From a virus, in IMG/VR virus record IMGVR_UViG_3300037137_002161, positions 1-38,240 of that record: a DNA stretch of 38,240 bases; one strand, 5' to 3'. The position numbers were made by a program, and so were the translations under genes. The notes under the pieces are model-generated. The model saw only the letters and a list, made by a program, of their open reading frames with translations, did no database searches and was not told the DNA's origin. Shown in pieces: positions 1 to 38,240 of this stretch (positions within the stretch are counted from its first letter, which is position 1; each line of letters begins with the position of its first letter).

Positions 1-530
1 ATCGCCGGGACCCTCGCCGGGCCCCCCAGGAGGGACCCGCGACCTCTCGTGTAGGTCCCATGCACCCCGGCCCGCCCCTGATGGCAGCCCGAGCATAGCC
101 ACACCACCTGCAGCGGCTGGCTGTAGTCGTGGTGGTGGGCGTGGATCCGGTGGCGTGGGACCACGGCGGCGCAGCGCGAGCAGCTGGCGGGCTTGACCAG
201 CCGCCCTTCGCGCACCGCCTTGTAGACCATGTACCTCGCCCGCTTGGCGAGCGTGATGCGGGTGCGGTCGACTGCGATGAAACGCTGGATCCGCCGCCGC
301 GGTCGGGCCGCGCGCTCGGCTCGACGCGCCACCGCCTCCGCGCTGATCTGGGCGCGAGGCTTGCACCCGAGGCGCGCACGCAGGCGCCGCTTAAACTCTC
401 GCCGCCTTGTCCGGGCCTTGGCCGCCGATGCGGGATCGGCCTTCTCGCGAGCCAGTTCGCAGCGGCCACAGCGGCGCCGGCCGAGCCTGGCGGGGCGCTC
501 CCCGCACTCGCGGCAGGGCCGCGGCGTCAC
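1..530 (-). CDS. Two-zinc-motif HNH-like protein, spans contig junction
   Basis: Starts at GTG 530 inside a GTGA overlap with the stop of the upstream gene, and stays open to base 1. If bases 1-12 are merged with the identical 38229-38240, the frame continues for a few codons to a TAG at 38215-38213, giving about 181 residues. The N-terminus has two CxxC pairs (CREC, then CGRC). The middle is very Arg/Ala-rich. The C-terminal part carries CSRC, a HAHHHDY stretch and WLCSGCH. This C-terminal layout (CxxC, HHxDY, PLxVxWLCxxCH) is typical of small phage zinc proteins related to HNH nucleases. Nuclease activity is inference, because the classical HNH Asn cannot be placed with certainty. The upstream gene is a short basic protein and the downstream one is the frame-broken gene near 38 kb. 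Confidence 0.6.
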   Translation of the reverse strand, partial: MTPRPCRECGERPARLGRRRCGRCELAREKADPASAAKARTRRREFKRRLRARLGCKPRAQISAEAVARRAERAARPRRRIQRFIAVDRTRITLAKRARYMVYKAVREGRLVKPASCSRCAAVVPRHRIHAHHHDYSQPLQVVWLCSGCHQGRAGVHGTYTRGRGSLLGGPARVPA

Positions 531-763
531 GATTGCCGCCGCTGGCCCAGCCGCAGCCGCCCGATCCGGTCGAACAGGCGGGTGAGCAATCCCGGGCGCG
601 CGGGCCGCTCGATGATCTGCCGCCGCATCTCCTGAACCGGCGGGACGTCGAGCTTCCGCTTCGCCTCGCGCTTCGCTCGCTGGCGACCCCGCCGGTGCCG
701 GGCCCACTCGAGGCCGTCCCGCCTCAGCCATGATCGCTGCCAGGTCCGCGCGGTCGAGCTCAT
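527..763 (-). CDS. Small basic hypothetical protein
   Basis: 78 residues, extremely rich in Arg and Lys, with no recognisable domain. ATG at 763 lies four bases after the stop of the lipoprotein gene, and the stop overlaps the GTG of the next gene, so it fits the chain of coupled genes. A nucleic-acid-binding role would suit the charge but is only a guess. Confidence 0.5.
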   Translation of the reverse strand: MSSTARTWQRSWLRRDGLEWARHRRGRQRAKREAKRKLDVPPVQEMRRQIIERPARPGLLTRLFDRIGRLRLGQRRQS

Positions 764-767
764 GGCG

Positions 768-1091
768 TCAGTGATTTGCGCACACCGTGACGACGCCGTA
801 GTCCGCGCTGGTCTCGACCCAGCGGTCGTTGCCGTTGTAACCCTTGACGCGGGCCCTGAGGTAGCCGGCCTGCTGGGCCTTCTGGAACACGTAGCACTCG
901 CCAGCCTTGGCGCTCCAGGTCTGAGCGCCGCAGCCCTGGACGCTGCCGCCGCTCACGCTCCCGGTCCAGCAGCCGCTCGACTCGACCTCGACCCTGGTGC
1001 TGCAGCCGGTCCCGGTGAGCAGCGCCAGCGCCAGGAAGGCGGCCCAGGATGCCGCCCTTCGGCCAGGGTGGGTTTCTGAAGGTCGTTCCAT
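768..1091 (-). CDS. Putative secreted lipoprotein
   Basis: 107 residues. The N-terminus is basic, followed by a hydrophobic stretch (AAFLALALLTGTG) and a lipobox-like TGTGC at about residue 30, so export and lipid attachment are expected. The mature part is about 78 residues with several further Cys (SSGCWTGSV, QGCGAQ, GECYVF, VTVCANH), which could form disulfides. A strong Shine-Dalgarno (GAGGAGGAT) precedes the ATG. It follows the replication initiator gene and so sits in the early block, far from the lysis genes. Early phage lipoproteins often block superinfection at the cell surface. That function is inference, and no family was recognised. Confidence 0.7.
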   Translation of the reverse strand: MERPSETHPGRRAASWAAFLALALLTGTGCSTRVEVESSGCWTGSVSGGSVQGCGAQTWSAKAGECYVFQKAQQAGYLRARVKGYNGNDRWVETSADYGVVTVCANH

Positions 1092-1101
1092 GCGATCCTC
1101 C

Positions 1102-1983
1102 TCAGGCGCGCTCGCGCGCCTCCAGTGAGATCCCCAGCTGCGCGGCCGTGCGCTTCGCCAGGTGGGTGAAGTAGGCGCCGGCGGACTTTCGCAGGCGCCC
1201 GGTGCGCCGGGCGTCCCGGACCTCGGAGAGCGCGGTCCAGATCGACTCGGCCGGCAGCCGCGCCGCCACCATCCGGTAGAAGCCCTGCGACCTCGGGTCG
1301 CCGAGTTCCTCGATTAGGGCGGCCACCAGGTGCTGCTGCTGGTCGTGCCCGTTCCGCGACGGCGTCGCAACGTTAACGGGTTTAAGTACTTCTTCAACGT
1401 ACCCCTTCCTGGCCGTTTTTCGGCCAGCAGATTCTGCTGGCCGTTTTTCGGCCTTAGGTGGATCGACCTGTGGCCGTTTTTCGGCCTTAGGTCCATCGAG
1501 GCCCGGGATGGGCACTTGCCGGGCCGTGCGGGCGATCCGCTCGGCCGCGCGCACGAAGGCCTCGCCCTCATCCTCCGGCACCAGCGGGTCGTCCATGAGC
1601 ACGTGGTAGAGGTCCGCGCCCCGCACGCGCTTGCCGATCGTCTCGTCGTAATGATAGGTGGGCTCGCGCTTCACGAACCCATACGCCTCGAGGTCTCGCA
1701 GGGCCGCGCTCACCGTATGGCGCTTGCGGATCCCGAGCTCGATCGCCAGCGTCTGCTGGGAGGGGAAGCACCAATCGCGGCGCTCGCCGGTCTCGCGGTT
1801 GAAGTAGCAATACTGCCGCAGCCGCAGCAGCAGGCAGGTCGCGAGCGGGGCCAGGCGCGGCACCCAGCGGGCCCAGAAGTAGCGGGTGGTGACCGTGACC
1901 TGGTCGGGCCGCACGACCTCGTTGCGGACCTCGAGGTAGGTCGGCTCGAGCTGGAGCATCCGGCGGTCCTCGGCTGAGCTCAT
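1102..1983 (-). CDS. Replication initiator, lambda O-like, winged-helix
   Basis: 293 residues. The N-terminal half contains a winged-helix region at about residues 73-107 (PSQQTLAIELGIRKR, then LRDLEAYGFVKRE), the pattern of phage replication proteins of the O/DnaT type. Residues about 155-205 are a Pro/Lys-rich linker with PKAEKRP twice, and the DNA encoding this linker holds three copies of a 15-bp palindromic repeat. The C-terminal part (about 210-293) is helical and basic and could contact host replication factors. ATG 1983 overlaps the RusA stop (ATGA). The only other DNA-metabolism genes nearby are RusA and the methyltransferase, so replication must rely on host polymerase and probably host helicase. 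The role comes from domain layout, context and the embedded repeats; no family search was possible. Confidence 0.72.
   Translation of the reverse strand: MSSAEDRRMLQLEPTYLEVRNEVVRPDQVTVTTRYFWARWVPRLAPLATCLLLRLRQYCYFNRETGERRDWCFPSQQTLAIELGIRKRHTVSAALRDLEAYGFVKREPTYHYDETIGKRVRGADLYHVLMDDPLVPEDEGEAFVRAAERIARTARQVPIPGLDGPKAEKRPQVDPPKAEKRPAESAGRKTARKGYVEEVLKPVNVATPSRNGHDQQQHLVAALIEELGDPRSQGFYRMVAARLPAESIWTALSEVRDARRTGRLRKSAGAYFTHLAKRTAAQLGISLEARERA
1366..1492. other. Candidate replication origin inside the initiator gene
   Basis: Three 15-bp palindromic repeats are followed, in gene direction, by a relatively A+T-rich patch at 1367-1403 that contains AACGTTAAC, TTTAAGTACTT and CAACGTACC. This patch stands out in a very G+C-rich genome. 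Initiator iterons inside the initiator gene followed by an A+T-rich unwinding region is the arrangement of ori-lambda within gene O. The match is structural, not sequence-based. Confidence 0.6.
1411..1486. repeat. Three iterons, GGCCGTTTTTCGGCC
   Basis: Exact copies lie at 1411-1425, 1439-1453 and 1472-1486. Each is itself an inverted repeat (GGCCG, five T, CGGCC). Copies two and three extend to a 21-bp direct repeat ending TTAGGT. Between copies one and two is an 11-bp-arm palindrome centred on 1432 (CGGCCAGCAGA / TCTGCTGGCCG). Start-to-start spacings are 28 and 33 bp. Copy one is translated in a different frame from the other two, so the DNA rather than the peptide is conserved. Confidence 0.85.
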
Positions 1984-2450
1984 GCGCCGACCCCGAGCCC
2001 GCCCAGCCACACCCGCAGCAAGCCACCGGTCCTGCTGGTGCAGGCCGCACCGCGCGCGATGGTGATGCGGTCGAAGTAGAGGTCGTCGGCGATCACCCGC
2101 GCGTGCGTGAGCCCATCGAGCACCGGCTTCAAGAGGTTGTCGAGGTCGCGTCGCCGGCGCGGGGCGGGCTCGTGTGCCAGCAGGAAGATCTCGAGGTGCC
2201 CGACCAGCTCGCGGCGCGGCACCCGCTGCACCAGGAGCGCGACCTCGACGCGCTGGCGGTAGGCGCGCCCCGCGGCGCTCAGCAGCGTGCGGCCGGCCAG
2301 CGGGCCGCTCGAGGGCGACCGCCAGTAGTGGTTGACGCTCGGCGGCCAAGGGAGCTCGAACTCGAGCGCCGGCGCCAGCTCGGGCTCGGGATCGGCGCGC
2401 GCGAACTCAGTCGGCGGGAGCGTCTCCCGCGGCGCGGGGCTGGGCGTCAT
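1980..2450 (-). CDS. rusA: RusA-family Holliday junction resolvase
   Basis: 156 residues. Diagnostic RusA segments are visible: PWPPSVNHYWR near residue 35, the acidic metal-binding DLDNLLKPVLDGL around residues 101-113, and VIADD soon after. RusA enzymes are Mg-dependent homodimers that cut four-way junctions. In phages they resolve recombination or replication intermediates before packaging. The start lies inside the end of the HTH gene (44-base overlap) and the stop overlaps the ATG of the initiator gene. The first ~30 residues are Pro/Glu-rich and probably disordered, so a later start is possible but no better candidate is evident. Confidence 0.87.
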   Translation of the reverse strand: MTPSPAPRETLPPTEFARADPEPELAPALEFELPWPPSVNHYWRSPSSGPLAGRTLLSAAGRAYRQRVEVALLVQRVPRRELVGHLEIFLLAHEPAPRRRRDLDNLLKPVLDGLTHARVIADDLYFDRITIARGAACTSRTGGLLRVWLGGLGVGA

Positions 2451-2787
2451 GCGACTCGGCTCCAGGCGATGCGCGATCGCGCTGCCGGTAGATGTCCTCG
2501 AGCGAGACCGAGCCCCGGCTGAGCTCGACGATCGCCAGCGCCTTCGCGCGCGGCTGCGGGATGGCGCGCCCTGCGACCCAGTGGTGGACCGCTGCGCGCG
2601 TGGCGGTGTGCCCGCCGGCGCGCAGCGCGCTCACCAGCCGCGCGACCGTGAAGCCGCGCACCCATGAGCCGAACGGGGTGACCCAGCGGGGAGACGACGC
2701 GGTCGCCGACGAGGGCGGCGAGTCGGCGAGGCGGTAAGACGAGGCATCGGTCGGGCTCCATGCGCGCCGGCGGAATTGCCGAGCCAT
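2407..2787 (-). CDS. Helix-turn-helix DNA-binding protein, likely early regulator
   Basis: 126 residues. Residues about 45-100 look like a Cro/CI-type helix-turn-helix: FTVARLVSALRAGGH, then AAVHHWVAGRAIPQPRAKA. The HHWVAGRAIP stretch is the usual position of the recognition helix and the following turn. The tail (SLEDIYRQR) also fits such regulators. ATG 2787 has a good Shine-Dalgarno (CAGGAG). It is the first gene after the ~300-bp non-coding gap and so heads the early operon, the natural place for a regulator of that operon. No partner repressor or integrase was found, so a lysogeny switch is not demonstrated. Confidence 0.62.
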   Translation of the reverse strand: MARQFRRRAWSPTDASSYRLADSPPSSATASSPRWVTPFGSWVRGFTVARLVSALRAGGHTATRAAVHHWVAGRAIPQPRAKALAIVELSRGSVSLEDIYRQRDRASPGAESHDAQPRAAGDAPAD

Positions 2788-3082
2788 CTATTGCTCCTGT
2801 GGCGGGTGGGGCCCGGTGCTTCGTCAGGGTACTGCGGTACAGCAAGGACGTGCCAGGTCCAGACGTGTCTGCTTCCCGGGCCCCACTGCCAGCTGCGTCA
2901 CCTTACGCGGTTCGTGTTGGCCGCGCAAGGCCCTCGATCGCCGCGGATCTCGCGGCGCGGCGCGTGGTGGGCGGATGCGCGCCCCCCGCTACGGCATCCC
3001 GCCGGCGGTGGGATCCGCGATGTGGACCATCGGGGTCAGCGGCATGGGCATCACCCCCTCTCGGCCAAGTGCAGGCGACGCG
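2788..3082 (-). promoter_or_regulatory. Intergenic region between late and early operons
   Basis: The longest stretch here without a confident gene. It separates the end of the late operon from the HTH gene. A weak promoter-like pair on the minus strand is TTGCGC, 17 bases, TAAGGT. GTACTGCGGTAC (2830-2841) is a small palindrome that could be an operator. There is no clear hairpin with a T-tract. A 20-codon reading frame within it is listed separately. Confidence 0.3.
2989..3051 (-). CDS. Possible 20-residue Met/Pro-rich peptide
   Basis: An ATG preceded by GAGAGGGGGTG opens a 20-codon frame with the sequence MPMPLTPMVHIADPTAGGMP, ending in TAG. It starts about 30 bases after the stop of the last late gene. 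It could be a small terminal gene or a leader peptide for the early operon. Too short to judge from sequence alone. Confidence 0.25.
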   Translation of the reverse strand: MPMPLTPMVHIADPTAGGMP

Positions 3083-19208: not shown

Positions 19209-21197
19209 CTACGTGGCGCCGGTCGACTTGGCGAACGACTCGCCGTGGCGCGGCACCACGTCCGCCAGCTGGAAGCTGGTGATCTCGATCAACCCGCTCT
19301 TCTTCTGGCTGTAGGGATCGACCACCAGCTCCATCATCGAGAACAGCGCCAGGATCAGGTCGCCCCAGTTGCCGAAGATGATCCCCGACTCCGCGCCGCC
19401 GGTGGTCGCCGAGCCGCTCATGACGTTCGACACCTGGTTGGTGCCGCGCGCCTGGTAGCCCTGGACCGTGCCGCTCTGGTGGGTGCCGTCCCACACGAAC
19501 GGCGAGGCCACGCCCGGCGCCTTGAGCGTGGTCATCAGCTCGGTGGCGATCTGGGGGTTGGTGAGGAAGCCCAGCGCGCCCTGGTCGGCGTTCTGCTGCG
19601 CCACCAGCTTCATCAGGTTGGCCATGTTGGCGAAGGTCGGCGCCCCGCCGAACGCCTGGGCCCCGACGCCCGCGGCGGCGTAGATCCCCATCGGCTCGCC
19701 GGCCGCTCCGAGGCCGTGGATCGACGCGCGGTCGATCGCGATGCTGTGGATCAGCGCCAGCTCCTCGCGCACCATGGTCTCGACGTCGATGGTCGCCTGC
19801 GCCAGCAGCTGGCGGCTGTAGGCCATGGTGGCCTGCAGCGTCTTGGGCGCCACCTGGACCAGCCCCAGCGCGACGTCCGAAGCCGTGACGGCCGCGGCGT
19901 TCTCGCCCACCCAGTAGGCGGTGGCGGCGCCGGTCTGCTTCGGGAACGCGATCGGGCCCGACAGGCCGGTCAGCAGCCGCGCGCCCATCTGCAGCACGTA
20001 GGTGCGGTTGCGCAGCAGCTCGATCAACTCGCCGGGCTGCTCGAACACCAGCTCGGTACCCTTGGCGAGCGTCTTGGAGTCGAGCACGCGCTTCTCGACC
20101 GCCAGCTCGCCCAGCTGGTCCTCGTCGCTGAGCCGCATCGGGATCAAGAGGCCGCCGCGGCGCTCCAGACCCGAGGGCCACTGCTTCGCGAGCGCGCGGT
20201 GCACCTCGCCCTCGATCCCGTCCGGCTTGGCCTGGTCGAGTACGTTGTCGATCGCCATCTGGATCGCCCGGCGGTAGCTGTACCGCTTGCGGTCCTTCTT
20301 CGCCAGGCCATCGAGCGCCTCGGCGCCGGCCCCGCCGCGCTCGCTCAGCTTCTTCACCTTGTCGCTCAGCAGCTCGCGCATCACCTGCTCGACCGCGCTG
20401 CCGTCCTTCACGTACTTGGCGATCCGGTCGGCGGCGTTGTGGCCGTGGCACAGGTCGGTGATCTCGGCGATCCGGTTCGTCTGCTCCTCGACCGCCGCCT
20501 TGACGGCCAGCGCGGTGCGCTCCTTCTCCTGCGCCGGGTCGGCCGCGACGCCGGGCTCAATCGGACTCCGGTGAAGCATGGTTCTTTCCTCCCTGACGGC
20601 GGTGCCGTCGCGGACTTCCATCGGGCGGTCGAGCTCCTCGCCGCCTGCACTGCGACCGACGCCCACGCTGGGGTCGGCCGGCACTCCCACCAGCGACATC
20701 TCGACCGGCTCCCAGTCGTCGATGCGCCAGAGGTCGCCCTCCTGCTCGTTCTTCTCGACCAGCGTGGCCACGTGCACCAGGTAGCCGATGCTGATGTTGG
20801 TGCGGACCCGGGCCTCGACGTCGCGCTGCGCCTCCTGGCCGCGCGGGTTCGGCGAGAAGCGGGTGTCGGCGACGATCCGCTTCTGGTCGATGATCGCCGA
20901 GTCCACCACGCCAATCGGCACGCCGCGGTGCTCCTCGAGCATCGCCGCCGAGCCGGAGGCGAACCGCTCCATCCGCACCGCGCCGGCCGCGTGCGAGAGC
21001 TGCTCGCGCCAGTCGCTGAAGAAGCCGCGCCGCGTCACGATCCGCTCGCTCGAGGCCGACATGCGGAAGCGCACCGGGTCGCCCTCGGCGCGCGCCGCGA
21101 GCGGCTTGATCTCCTCGACCGGCAGCAGCTGCATCCCGCGGCCGCCCGGGTAGACCAGGCGCCGGTTGTGCGACTTCGAGGGTGCGGCAACCGTCAT
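19209..21197 (-). CDS. Fused prohead protease and major capsid protein
   Basis: 662 residues. Residues about 40-185 match a prohead protease of the HK97 (S78) kind: His90 in MLEEHRGVPIGVV and Ser136 in NISIGYLV are the expected catalytic pair, and WEPVEMSLVGVPADPS closes the domain. Residues about 207-345 are a charged helical scaffold-like region (ERTALAVKAAVEEQTNRIAE). From about 345 the sequence is an HK97-fold capsid protein (GELVFEQ-like arm, GAATAYWVGENAAA, KTLQATMAYSRQLLAQATID, IHGLGAAGEPMGIYAAAG, SGLIEITSFQLADVVPRHGE). An internal ATG at 20579 (residue 207) has a strong ribosome site, so capsid protein can probably also be made without the protease. Follows the portal and a 290-residue structural gene. 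Confidence 0.85.
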   Translation of the reverse strand: MTVAAPSKSHNRRLVYPGGRGMQLLPVEEIKPLAARAEGDPVRFRMSASSERIVTRRGFFSDWREQLSHAAGAVRMERFASGSAAMLEEHRGVPIGVVDSAIIDQKRIVADTRFSPNPRGQEAQRDVEARVRTNISIGYLVHVATLVEKNEQEGDLWRIDDWEPVEMSLVGVPADPSVGVGRSAGGEELDRPMEVRDGTAVREERTMLHRSPIEPGVAADPAQEKERTALAVKAAVEEQTNRIAEITDLCHGHNAADRIAKYVKDGSAVEQVMRELLSDKVKKLSERGGAGAEALDGLAKKDRKRYSYRRAIQMAIDNVLDQAKPDGIEGEVHRALAKQWPSGLERRGGLLIPMRLSDEDQLGELAVEKRVLDSKTLAKGTELVFEQPGELIELLRNRTYVLQMGARLLTGLSGPIAFPKQTGAATAYWVGENAAAVTASDVALGLVQVAPKTLQATMAYSRQLLAQATIDVETMVREELALIHSIAIDRASIHGLGAAGEPMGIYAAAGVGAQAFGGAPTFANMANLMKLVAQQNADQGALGFLTNPQIATELMTTLKAPGVASPFVWDGTHQSGTVQGYQARGTNQVSNVMSGSATTGGAESGIIFGNWGDLILALFSMMELVVDPYSQKKSGLIEITSFQLADVVPRHGESFAKSTGAT
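20577..20592 (-). promoter_or_regulatory. Internal ribosome site for separate capsid protein
   Basis: On the minus strand GGAGG (20592-20588), preceded by AG, lies eight bases before an in-frame ATG (20579). Translation from here gives 456 residues: scaffold-like region plus capsid domain, without protease. Such strength of Shine-Dalgarno inside a gene is unlikely to be needed unless used. Confidence 0.6.
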
Positions 21198-35751: not shown

Positions 35752-37208
35752 GCCGCCGCACCCTTGGCCCGCGGCGACTTCCGCGCTCGCGCCCGGCGCA
35801 CCGCTTCGAAGTCGCGGCCGCCTGGGCCGGCCAGGCGTGCGGCCTTGCCGGTGAGGTTCTGCCACCGTCGGATGATGACGTCGACGTACCGCTCCTCGAG
35901 CTCCATCAGGTAGGCGTGGAGCCCGAGCGCGCTGCAGGCGACCAGCGTCGATCCGGAACCGGCGAACGGATCGAGAACGCGGGCGCCGGCGCGCGCGGAG
36001 TTGGCGAGCTGGCGCTGGATCAGCGCCACCGGCTTCATGGTCGGGTGCTCGGCGCTGACCCGGGGCTTCTCCTCGAGGAAGACGGACCCATGGGCGGCCT
36101 CCACCGTGACACCCTTGCCGCGGACGATCAGGGTGGTCTCGCCGACCGAGATCTGCCACTCGTCCTCGCCCACCTGCTCGAAGGGCGGCGCGTCGAACTC
36201 TGCGATCGTGGTCCGACCACGGCCGCCGTACCAGCGGTGCGCGCCCCCGGGCTTCCACCCGTAGAGAATCGGCTCGTGCTGCCAGTGGTAGTCGCCCTGC
36301 GAGAGCACCAGGGCGCTCTTGCGCCAGATCAGGCACGAGCTCAGCTTGAAGCCCGCGCGCTCGAACAGCTGGCGGAATATCAATCCCCCCTTCTCGGGGT
36401 GGGCGAGATAGACCGGCGCTCCGGGCCGCAGCGCGGCGGCGAGCAGCCGCAGCGCGGCGGCGAGCAGCCGCAGCGCGGCGGCGAGCAGCTTCGAGAACTC
36501 CTCGGCGGACAGCGCATCGTTCCTCATCTTCCCGGCCGAGTTCTCGACGTCAATGTTGTAGGGCGGGTCGGTCCAGGCGGCGTCGGCGAGCTGGCCGCCC
36601 ATCAGGCGGCTGAAGTCCCGCGGATCAGTGGCGTCGCCGCACAGCAGGCGGTGCGAGCCCAGCACCCAGAGGTCACCGCGGCGCGAGGTCGGGCGCGTCG
36701 GCACCCGCGGTAGCGGCGGTTCGCTCGAGCCCTCCGCTTCGACCGGCGAGAGGATCTCCGCCAGCGCCTCGGCGTCGAAGCCGGTGAGCCCGAGGTCGAA
36801 GCCCGCCACCTCGAGCGCGCGCATCTCCGATCTCAGCAGCTCCGGGTCCCAGTCGGCGGCCGCGGCGATCTGGTTGTCGGCGATCACCAGGGCCCGCTTC
36901 TCGGTCTCGTCCAGGTGGGTGATGCGGATCACCGGGACCTGCTTGAGCCCGAGCTGACGCGCCGCGGCGAGCCGGGCGTGTCCCGCCAGCACGCCCTGCT
37001 TCTCGTCCACCAGGACCGGGCTGGTGAAGCCGAACCGCACGATCAAGCCGGCCAGCGTCGCGACCTGGGTATCGGAGTGAGTGCGGGGATTCCGCTCGTA
37101 TGGCACGAGCTTCTCGATCGGCCACTGCTCGATCTTCTGGGCCTGCCACAGGCGGATCCCGTGGCGCACCAGGTCCTCCGCGGCCGCGGACTTCCTGCGA
37201 GCCGTCAT
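35748..37208 (-). CDS. ParB-domain / DNA methyltransferase fusion
   Basis: 486 residues from ATG 37208, which overlaps the previous stop. Residues about 30-110 are a ParB-type domain (IEKLVPYERNPRTHSDTQVA, VLVDEKQGVLAGHARLAAAR). Residues about 180-486 are a beta-class amino-methyltransferase, motif IV DPPYNID (214-220) before motif I DPFAGSGST (413-421), plus HPTMKPV (388-394). The DPPY motif methylates adenine N6 or cytosine N4. A triplicated LLAAALR lies after motif IV. No cognate restriction enzyme is seen, so protection against host restriction or gene regulation is likely. Such ParB-methylase fusions are known from phages. Confidence 0.87.
   Translation of the reverse strand: MTARRKSAAAEDLVRHGIRLWQAQKIEQWPIEKLVPYERNPRTHSDTQVATLAGLIVRFGFTSPVLVDEKQGVLAGHARLAAARQLGLKQVPVIRITHLDETEKRALVIADNQIAAAADWDPELLRSEMRALEVAGFDLGLTGFDAEALAEILSPVEAEGSSEPPLPRVPTRPTSRRGDLWVLGSHRLLCGDATDPRDFSRLMGGQLADAAWTDPPYNIDVENSAGKMRNDALSAEEFSKLLAAALRLLAAALRLLAAALRPGAPVYLAHPEKGGLIFRQLFERAGFKLSSCLIWRKSALVLSQGDYHWQHEPILYGWKPGGAHRWYGGRGRTTIAEFDAPPFEQVGEDEWQISVGETTLIVRGKGVTVEAAHGSVFLEEKPRVSAEHPTMKPVALIQRQLANSARAGARVLDPFAGSGSTLVACSALGLHAYLMELEERYVDVIIRRWQNLTGKAARLAGPGGRDFEAVRRARARKSPRAKGAAA
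36426..36488. repeat. Three exact 21-bp tandem repeats in methyltransferase
   Basis: Copies at 36426-36446, 36447-36467 and 36468-36488 encode LLAAALR three times. 21 is a multiple of three so frame is preserved. It lies between motif IV and the next conserved strand. Confidence 0.9.
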
Positions 37209-38228: not shown

Positions 38229-38240
38229 ATCGCCGGGACC
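38229..38240. repeat. 12-base repeat of the contig start
   Basis: ATCGCCGGGACC is identical to bases 1-12. Joining the ends extends the gene at 1-530 to a stop at 38213. Most likely an assembly overlap of a circular or circularly permuted genome. Confidence 0.75.

Follow-up and report, generated by a model that had tools for sequence, protein, structure and literature searches.

Replication origins located inside the gene of their own initiator are a known kind of system, represented by phages lambda and SPP1. In lambda, gene O occupies positions 38686-39585 of NC_001416 and contains the iterons at 39034-39118. These iterons are inverted repeats bound by dimers of O, and the A+T-rich region of 40 bp beside them is opened by O (PMC5043065; PMC7466680). 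As read from the record, they consist of ATCCCTCAAAACGAGGGA and variants, built as CCCTC-AAAAC-GAGGG and set in phases 0, 2, 2 and 1, and an A-rich tract follows them. The oriL of SPP1 lies inside gene 38, which encodes the replisome organizer gp38, and combines direct repeats with an A+T-rich unwinding element (PMC6316719).

The locus described here belongs to the phage record IMGVR_UViG_3300037137_002161, analysed over its whole length of 38,240 bp (the window). The record is classed as linear, has an overall A+T content of ~30% and carries nearly all its predicted genes on the minus strand. A 12-bp terminal direct repeat, ATCGCCGGGACC, is present at 1-12 and 38229-38240, and an endonuclease ORF at the left end is correctly completed when read across the 38229-38240/1-12 junction, so that the molecule is probably circular and the genome near complete; alternatively, the repeat could be a sequence of the cohesive-end type. 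The major head protein (19209-21197) also matches head-maturation protease families, which suggests a protease-capsid fusion. The features of the initiator region are the following:

1102-1983, minus strand: replication initiator gene, 293 aa, with profile matches to PHROG phrog_270 and phrog_678.
1980-2450, minus strand: RusA-like Holliday junction resolvase gene (phrog_34, E=1e-30; PF05866, E=1e-8).
2407-2787, minus strand: possible regulator of repressor type, leading the initiator's operon (phrog_35 transcriptional repressor, a weak match, E=0.002).
1472-1486, minus strand: first iteron in the direction of the gene (iteron 1), coding strand GGCCGAAAAACGGCC, phase 2, encoding KAEKRP.
1439-1453, minus strand: iteron 2, phase 2, encoding KAEKRP.
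1411-1425, minus strand: iteron 3, phase 0, encoding GRKTA, with inverted-repeat arms extended to 7 bp.
1421-1443, no strand assigned: palindrome read from the sequence, CGGCCAGCAGA-T-TCTGCTGGCCG, its arms 11 bp and its centre 1 nt long.
1368-1407, no strand assigned: putative DNA unwinding element; no other 40-bp stretch of the record is as rich in A+T.

The initiator ATG (1983-1981) overlaps the stop of the upstream RusA-like gene by 4 nt, and the gene has RusA and a small lipoprotein-like ORF as neighbours; no helicase or helicase loader was recognised among the genes scanned, which cover the small genes in part. The protein matches phrog_270, 'replication initiation protein', with E=5e-10 and the O-like phrog_678 with E=4e-6, the profile match covering the winged-helix region, and it matches HTH_36 weakly, under the Pfam cut-off. 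Pfam PF04492 (Phage_rep_O) gave no match at E<=1, a comparison with lambda O by hhalign, made with a shallow two-sequence profile, detected no similarity, and a PDB fold search returned generic winged-helix matches only, none of them at E<=0.001. Protein searches found no relatives in viral_contigs, genome_contigs or phages, and one weak match among plasmids. An AlphaFold2 model, built from a two-sequence alignment, places a winged helix at residues ~44-128, a disordered linker at ~149-211 and a C-terminal helical bundle at 211-288. With a mean pLDDT of only 59, it is confident for the two folded domains only and can be read for domain layout alone. The residues encoded by the iterons (~166-192) fall within the predicted unstructured stretch.

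A preliminary description of this DNA had claimed three exact repeats in the linker-coding part of the gene, one of them in a different frame, and this is what is found: GGCCGTTTTTCGGCC occurs exactly at 1411-1425, 1439-1453 and 1472-1486, in phases 2, 2 and 0 in gene order, with no further copy in the record even when one mismatch is allowed. On the coding strand the 15-mer reads GGCCG-AAAAA-CGGCC, a perfect inverted repeat around a 5-nt A-tract, a property on which that description was silent. The copies at 1439-1453 and 1472-1486 do share an extension as described, although it comes to 22 bp (TGGCCGTTTTTCGGCCTTAGGT) and not to 21, and they match at 93% over 29 bp. The reported palindrome with 11-bp arms is also present; it links iterons 2 and 3 through the half-sites that face each other, re-using one from each, and the predicted single-strand fold makes use of it. 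The A+T-rich patch said to follow the repeats in gene direction starts 3 bp past the last iteron, and its 57.5% A+T is the record-wide maximum for 40 bp, modest in absolute terms. No host DnaA boxes were detected near the iterons, and the whole record contains a single match with one mismatch.

Repeats within a coding sequence may arise as a by-product of a repeated peptide, here by tandem duplication of an 11-residue linker unit, and iterons 1 and 2 would agree with this, as they are in phase, 33 bp apart and 93% identical over 29 bp. The third copy, however, is in another phase, and the iteron codons are ones that this GC-rich genome seldom uses. Given the codon usage of the record, these linker peptides would be spelled with exactly these bases with a chance of ~1e-10. 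Related copies in other records, described below, occupy three phases in one gene and two in another and encode differing peptides. Duplication of a peptide is largely refuted by these phase data and retains scarcely any probability.

Pattern scans covering 2.9 million viral contigs and ~85,000 genomes recovered two further records with the exact 15-mer in clusters. The scan of viral_contigs, made on DNA only for two 15-mer copies within 35 bp, matched a single record, L004 (IMGVR_UViG_3300020123_000513), whose initiator is 38% identical to that of the window (BLASTP 4e-41). It contains three exact 15-mers in phases 2, 1 and 0, encoding EAEKRP, GPKNGL and GRKTA, and the linker peptide is not shared between the two proteins. 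The scan of genome_contigs, made for the 13-bp core with one genome per species, found L007, a prophage-like locus in a Planctomycetota MAG (JABTUM010000001.1). Its three copies, two full 15-mers and one matching at 14/15 with a different last base, are in phases 0, 2 and 0 inside a winged-helix initiator of ~160 aa that is flanked by DnaB-like helicase and RuvC-like genes. Both loci resemble the window in the shared iteron, the three clustered copies, their location in the linker of a winged-helix initiator and the adjoining A+T-rich tract, and differ from it in linker peptide, phases and spacing, the L007 protein also being short. Measured from the last iteron, the 40 bp richest in A+T within the window, L004 and L007 genes start at +3, +3 and -10 bp. 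Single exact 15-mers in 58 viral contigs were attributed to chance, none of the 58 having a comparable cluster, and among 392 Planctomycetota genomes the pattern matched solely the genome of L007 itself. Paired 13-mers in an Acidobacteria record (L005) and in a Clostridiales MAG (L006) lie outside initiators; at 3525-3723 of L006 there are at least four repeats containing GCCGAAAAACGGC, apparently in no initiator gene.

The preliminary description had argued for selection on DNA and had proposed that the repeats of relatives be compared with their linker peptide; in this comparison the repeats proved to be kept exactly and the peptide to be lost. Since the repeats remain exact across relatives while peptide and frame differ, selection acts on the DNA, and the iteron sites travel with the initiator gene. 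This association also bears on the proposal that the repeats are a plasmid-style centromere or another protein-binding array, serving partition, packaging or DNA modification. Two ParB-domain proteins are indeed encoded by the phage (29591-31039 and 35748-37334), but their genes are predicted to be ParB-like/methyltransferase genes more than 3 kb distant on the circle, no ParA was found among the genes scanned, and the repeat accompanies the initiator gene in unrelated records, so that such an array is very improbable. Both ParB-domain proteins are large, and one is fused to a DNA methyltransferase (phrog_498, E=3e-147). The ParB-domain/DNA methyltransferase gene contains three 21-bp head-to-tail repeats of its own (GCCGCAGCGCGGCGGCGAGCAGC units, 36425-36489), whose period, unlike that of the iterons, is a multiple of three.

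The architecture of ori-lambda had also been invoked for this region, and the gene does present a winged helix, linker-codon iterons, an A+T-rich tract and a C-terminal helical domain in that order. As in lambda, the iterons lie in the stretch of the initiator gene that separates the DNA-binding part from the C-terminal part, are formed by 5-bp inverted arms around a 5-nt A-rich centre, are read in multiple phases, and are directly followed in gene direction by the A+T-rich tract. Of the characteristics of a lambda-type origin, in-gene iterons between domains, their inverted-repeat structure and an adjoining A+T-rich region are present. The iteron had been called unrelated to that of lambda; this is correct for the arm sequences (GGCCG against CCCTC) but not for the build, which is the same 5+5+5 inverted repeat placed in several frames. 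There are three iterons against four in lambda, with spacings of 28-33 bp against 20-24 bp. Iteron spacing over the full range of 28-47 bp is not helically phased. The protein cannot be aligned with O, and no P-type loader gene adjoins it, nor any helicase gene among those scanned; given the missing alignment and the lack of a Phage_rep_O match, the locus is lambda-like by layout and stands outside the O family. The SPP1 oriL shares with the window the location of repeats and A+T-rich element within the initiator gene, whereas its protein belongs to another family; SPP1 also encodes a loader and a helicase and has a further origin at another site.

When the record was treated as a circle, a two-arc GC-skew fit placed an origin-type switch within 1.0-1.75 kb, with the opposite point at ~25.7 kb. 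The detrended cumulative minimum is located at 1714, and the amplitude has a block-shuffle p=0.001. With almost every gene on a single strand, the skew is not explained by gene orientation; as it is weak and the circularity inferred, it is taken as supporting evidence only.

Iterons can also serve autoregulation. The sites could accordingly be operators at which the initiator or other winged-helix protein represses or times its own operon, the origin being elsewhere. Palindromic sites do fit a dimeric winged-helix regulator, and the PDB fold matches are repressors of the MarR/PadR type, every one of them weak. Against this, the sites are ~500 nt within the gene and not at its promoter, they coincide with the skew minimum, and the most A+T-rich stretch of the gene adjoins them in three lineages. 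Since origin binding and autoregulation are compatible with each other, an operator role would not displace an origin; operators with the origin elsewhere are unlikely.

The segment 1368-1486 is very probably the replication origin of this phage, placed inside the initiator gene as in lambda. The proposed model is that the winged-helix domain would bind each inverted-repeat iteron, probably as a dimer, and that assembly of the initiator on the three iterons would melt the adjoining A+T-rich 40 bp, after which a helicase would be recruited. As no helicase or loader was recognised among the genes scanned, we infer that the C-terminal domain recruits the host helicase. It is further proposed that an origin that must be spelled within a gene is placed in the codons of a disordered linker. 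In every confirmed initiator the A-tract is on the coding strand, where it gives a hydrophilic peptide in every frame (AEKR, PKN, RKT).

The same strand bias, together with a strong predicted fold (z=-6 as RNA, and likewise as DNA), could also be expected if the three GGCCG-AAAAA-CGGCC units were mRNA hairpins governing translation or transcript stability. The need for a hydrophilic linker explains the A-rich sense strand equally, however, and no Rfam match was obtained over 1-3000. In the phage collection, initiators found by protein search have linker repeats in Skulduggery (CCCCTTCGGAAAACACG), Cruim01, HU1 and a Lysinibacillus phage, and weaker ones in Yersinia and Klebsiella phages, while those of LE1 and a Bacteroides phage have none. 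These repeats are mostly non-palindromic, including those of Skulduggery, Cruim01 and HU1, so that the common feature is direct repetition and not hairpins, and a role as RNA is highly unlikely. Judged from these genes, iterons within the gene are common, and only part of them are palindromic.

Of 100 stretches that a scan for two CGAAAAACG cores returned, 81 were analysed. In ~11 distinct loci the two copies each had arms of at least 4 bp, against ~0.3 expected by chance in 70 loci; eight of the distinct loci combined palindromic arms with an ORF, and six of these proved to be initiators, of several PHROG types:

L004: initiator that matched no PHROG and is included because it resembles the window protein.
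L012: initiator matching Pfam Phage_rep_O (E=5e-7).
L014/L015: initiator with palindromic arms.
L206/L239/L246: DnaD-like initiator.
L209/L247: initiator of primosomal type, phases 1, 0, 2 and 1.
L245: initiator with palindromic arms.

The arms of the initiator loci differ and yet remain complementary (GGCCG/CGGCC, TCCG/CGGA, CCCG/CGGG, GGGTTCG/CGAACCC, GCGCG/CGCGC and AATTCG/CGAATT). Among ~41 CGAAAAACG loci without such arms there are at least two initiators (L258 and L275), and the 25 families listed for 38 other arm-less loci include no initiation family. Paired cores in L009 and L011, and paired TATCCGAAAAACGGATA palindromes in L010/L013, occur without a recognised initiator. The ORF at L263:359-1546 has no PHROG match, and its linker contains four CGAAAAACG cores in three phases (DEKRPSHARKTTIPRAKND); it possibly represents an unrecognised initiator family. 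Four GGCTACGAAAAACGTATTG-like sites in L244 and three TATGGCGAAAAACGCACAC sites in L257 lie in no ORF of useful length and could be origins outside a gene. A second scan, with the centre left free, found the phrog_6643 winged-helix initiators (L086, L102, L157, L160, L163 and L178), each with three to five GGCCG-N5-CGGCC palindromes in linker codons as in the window; they belong to a different PHROG, and their centre is of the GAATC/AGATT type instead of A5. A literature search with the core sequence retrieved no replication paper, its matches being on unrelated subjects and probably primer or oligonucleotide sequences.

What was unexpected is that several unrelated families of initiator have palindromic CG-A5-CG iterons whose arms covary. 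The A5 core that they share makes a pattern to be tested and does not amount to a rule. A single grammar of palindromic iterons, shared by winged-helix initiators among phages of several bacterial phyla, with an A-tract or A+T-rich 5-nt centre, a constant CG-flanked core, covarying arms and the A-rich strand coding, is a tentative reading with somewhat less than an even chance of being right. Under such a grammar, specificity would be determined by the arms and a common contact provided by the core, while all three frames of the A-rich coding strand would give hydrophilic linker peptides.

The locus provides a candidate origin for a phage lineage without relatives in the annotated phage collection searched, and one that may be recognised from DNA alone, as its repeats stay exact while the encoded peptide and frame change. 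If the shared core holds, the origins of many uncultured phages, and the specificities of their initiators, could become readable from sequence.
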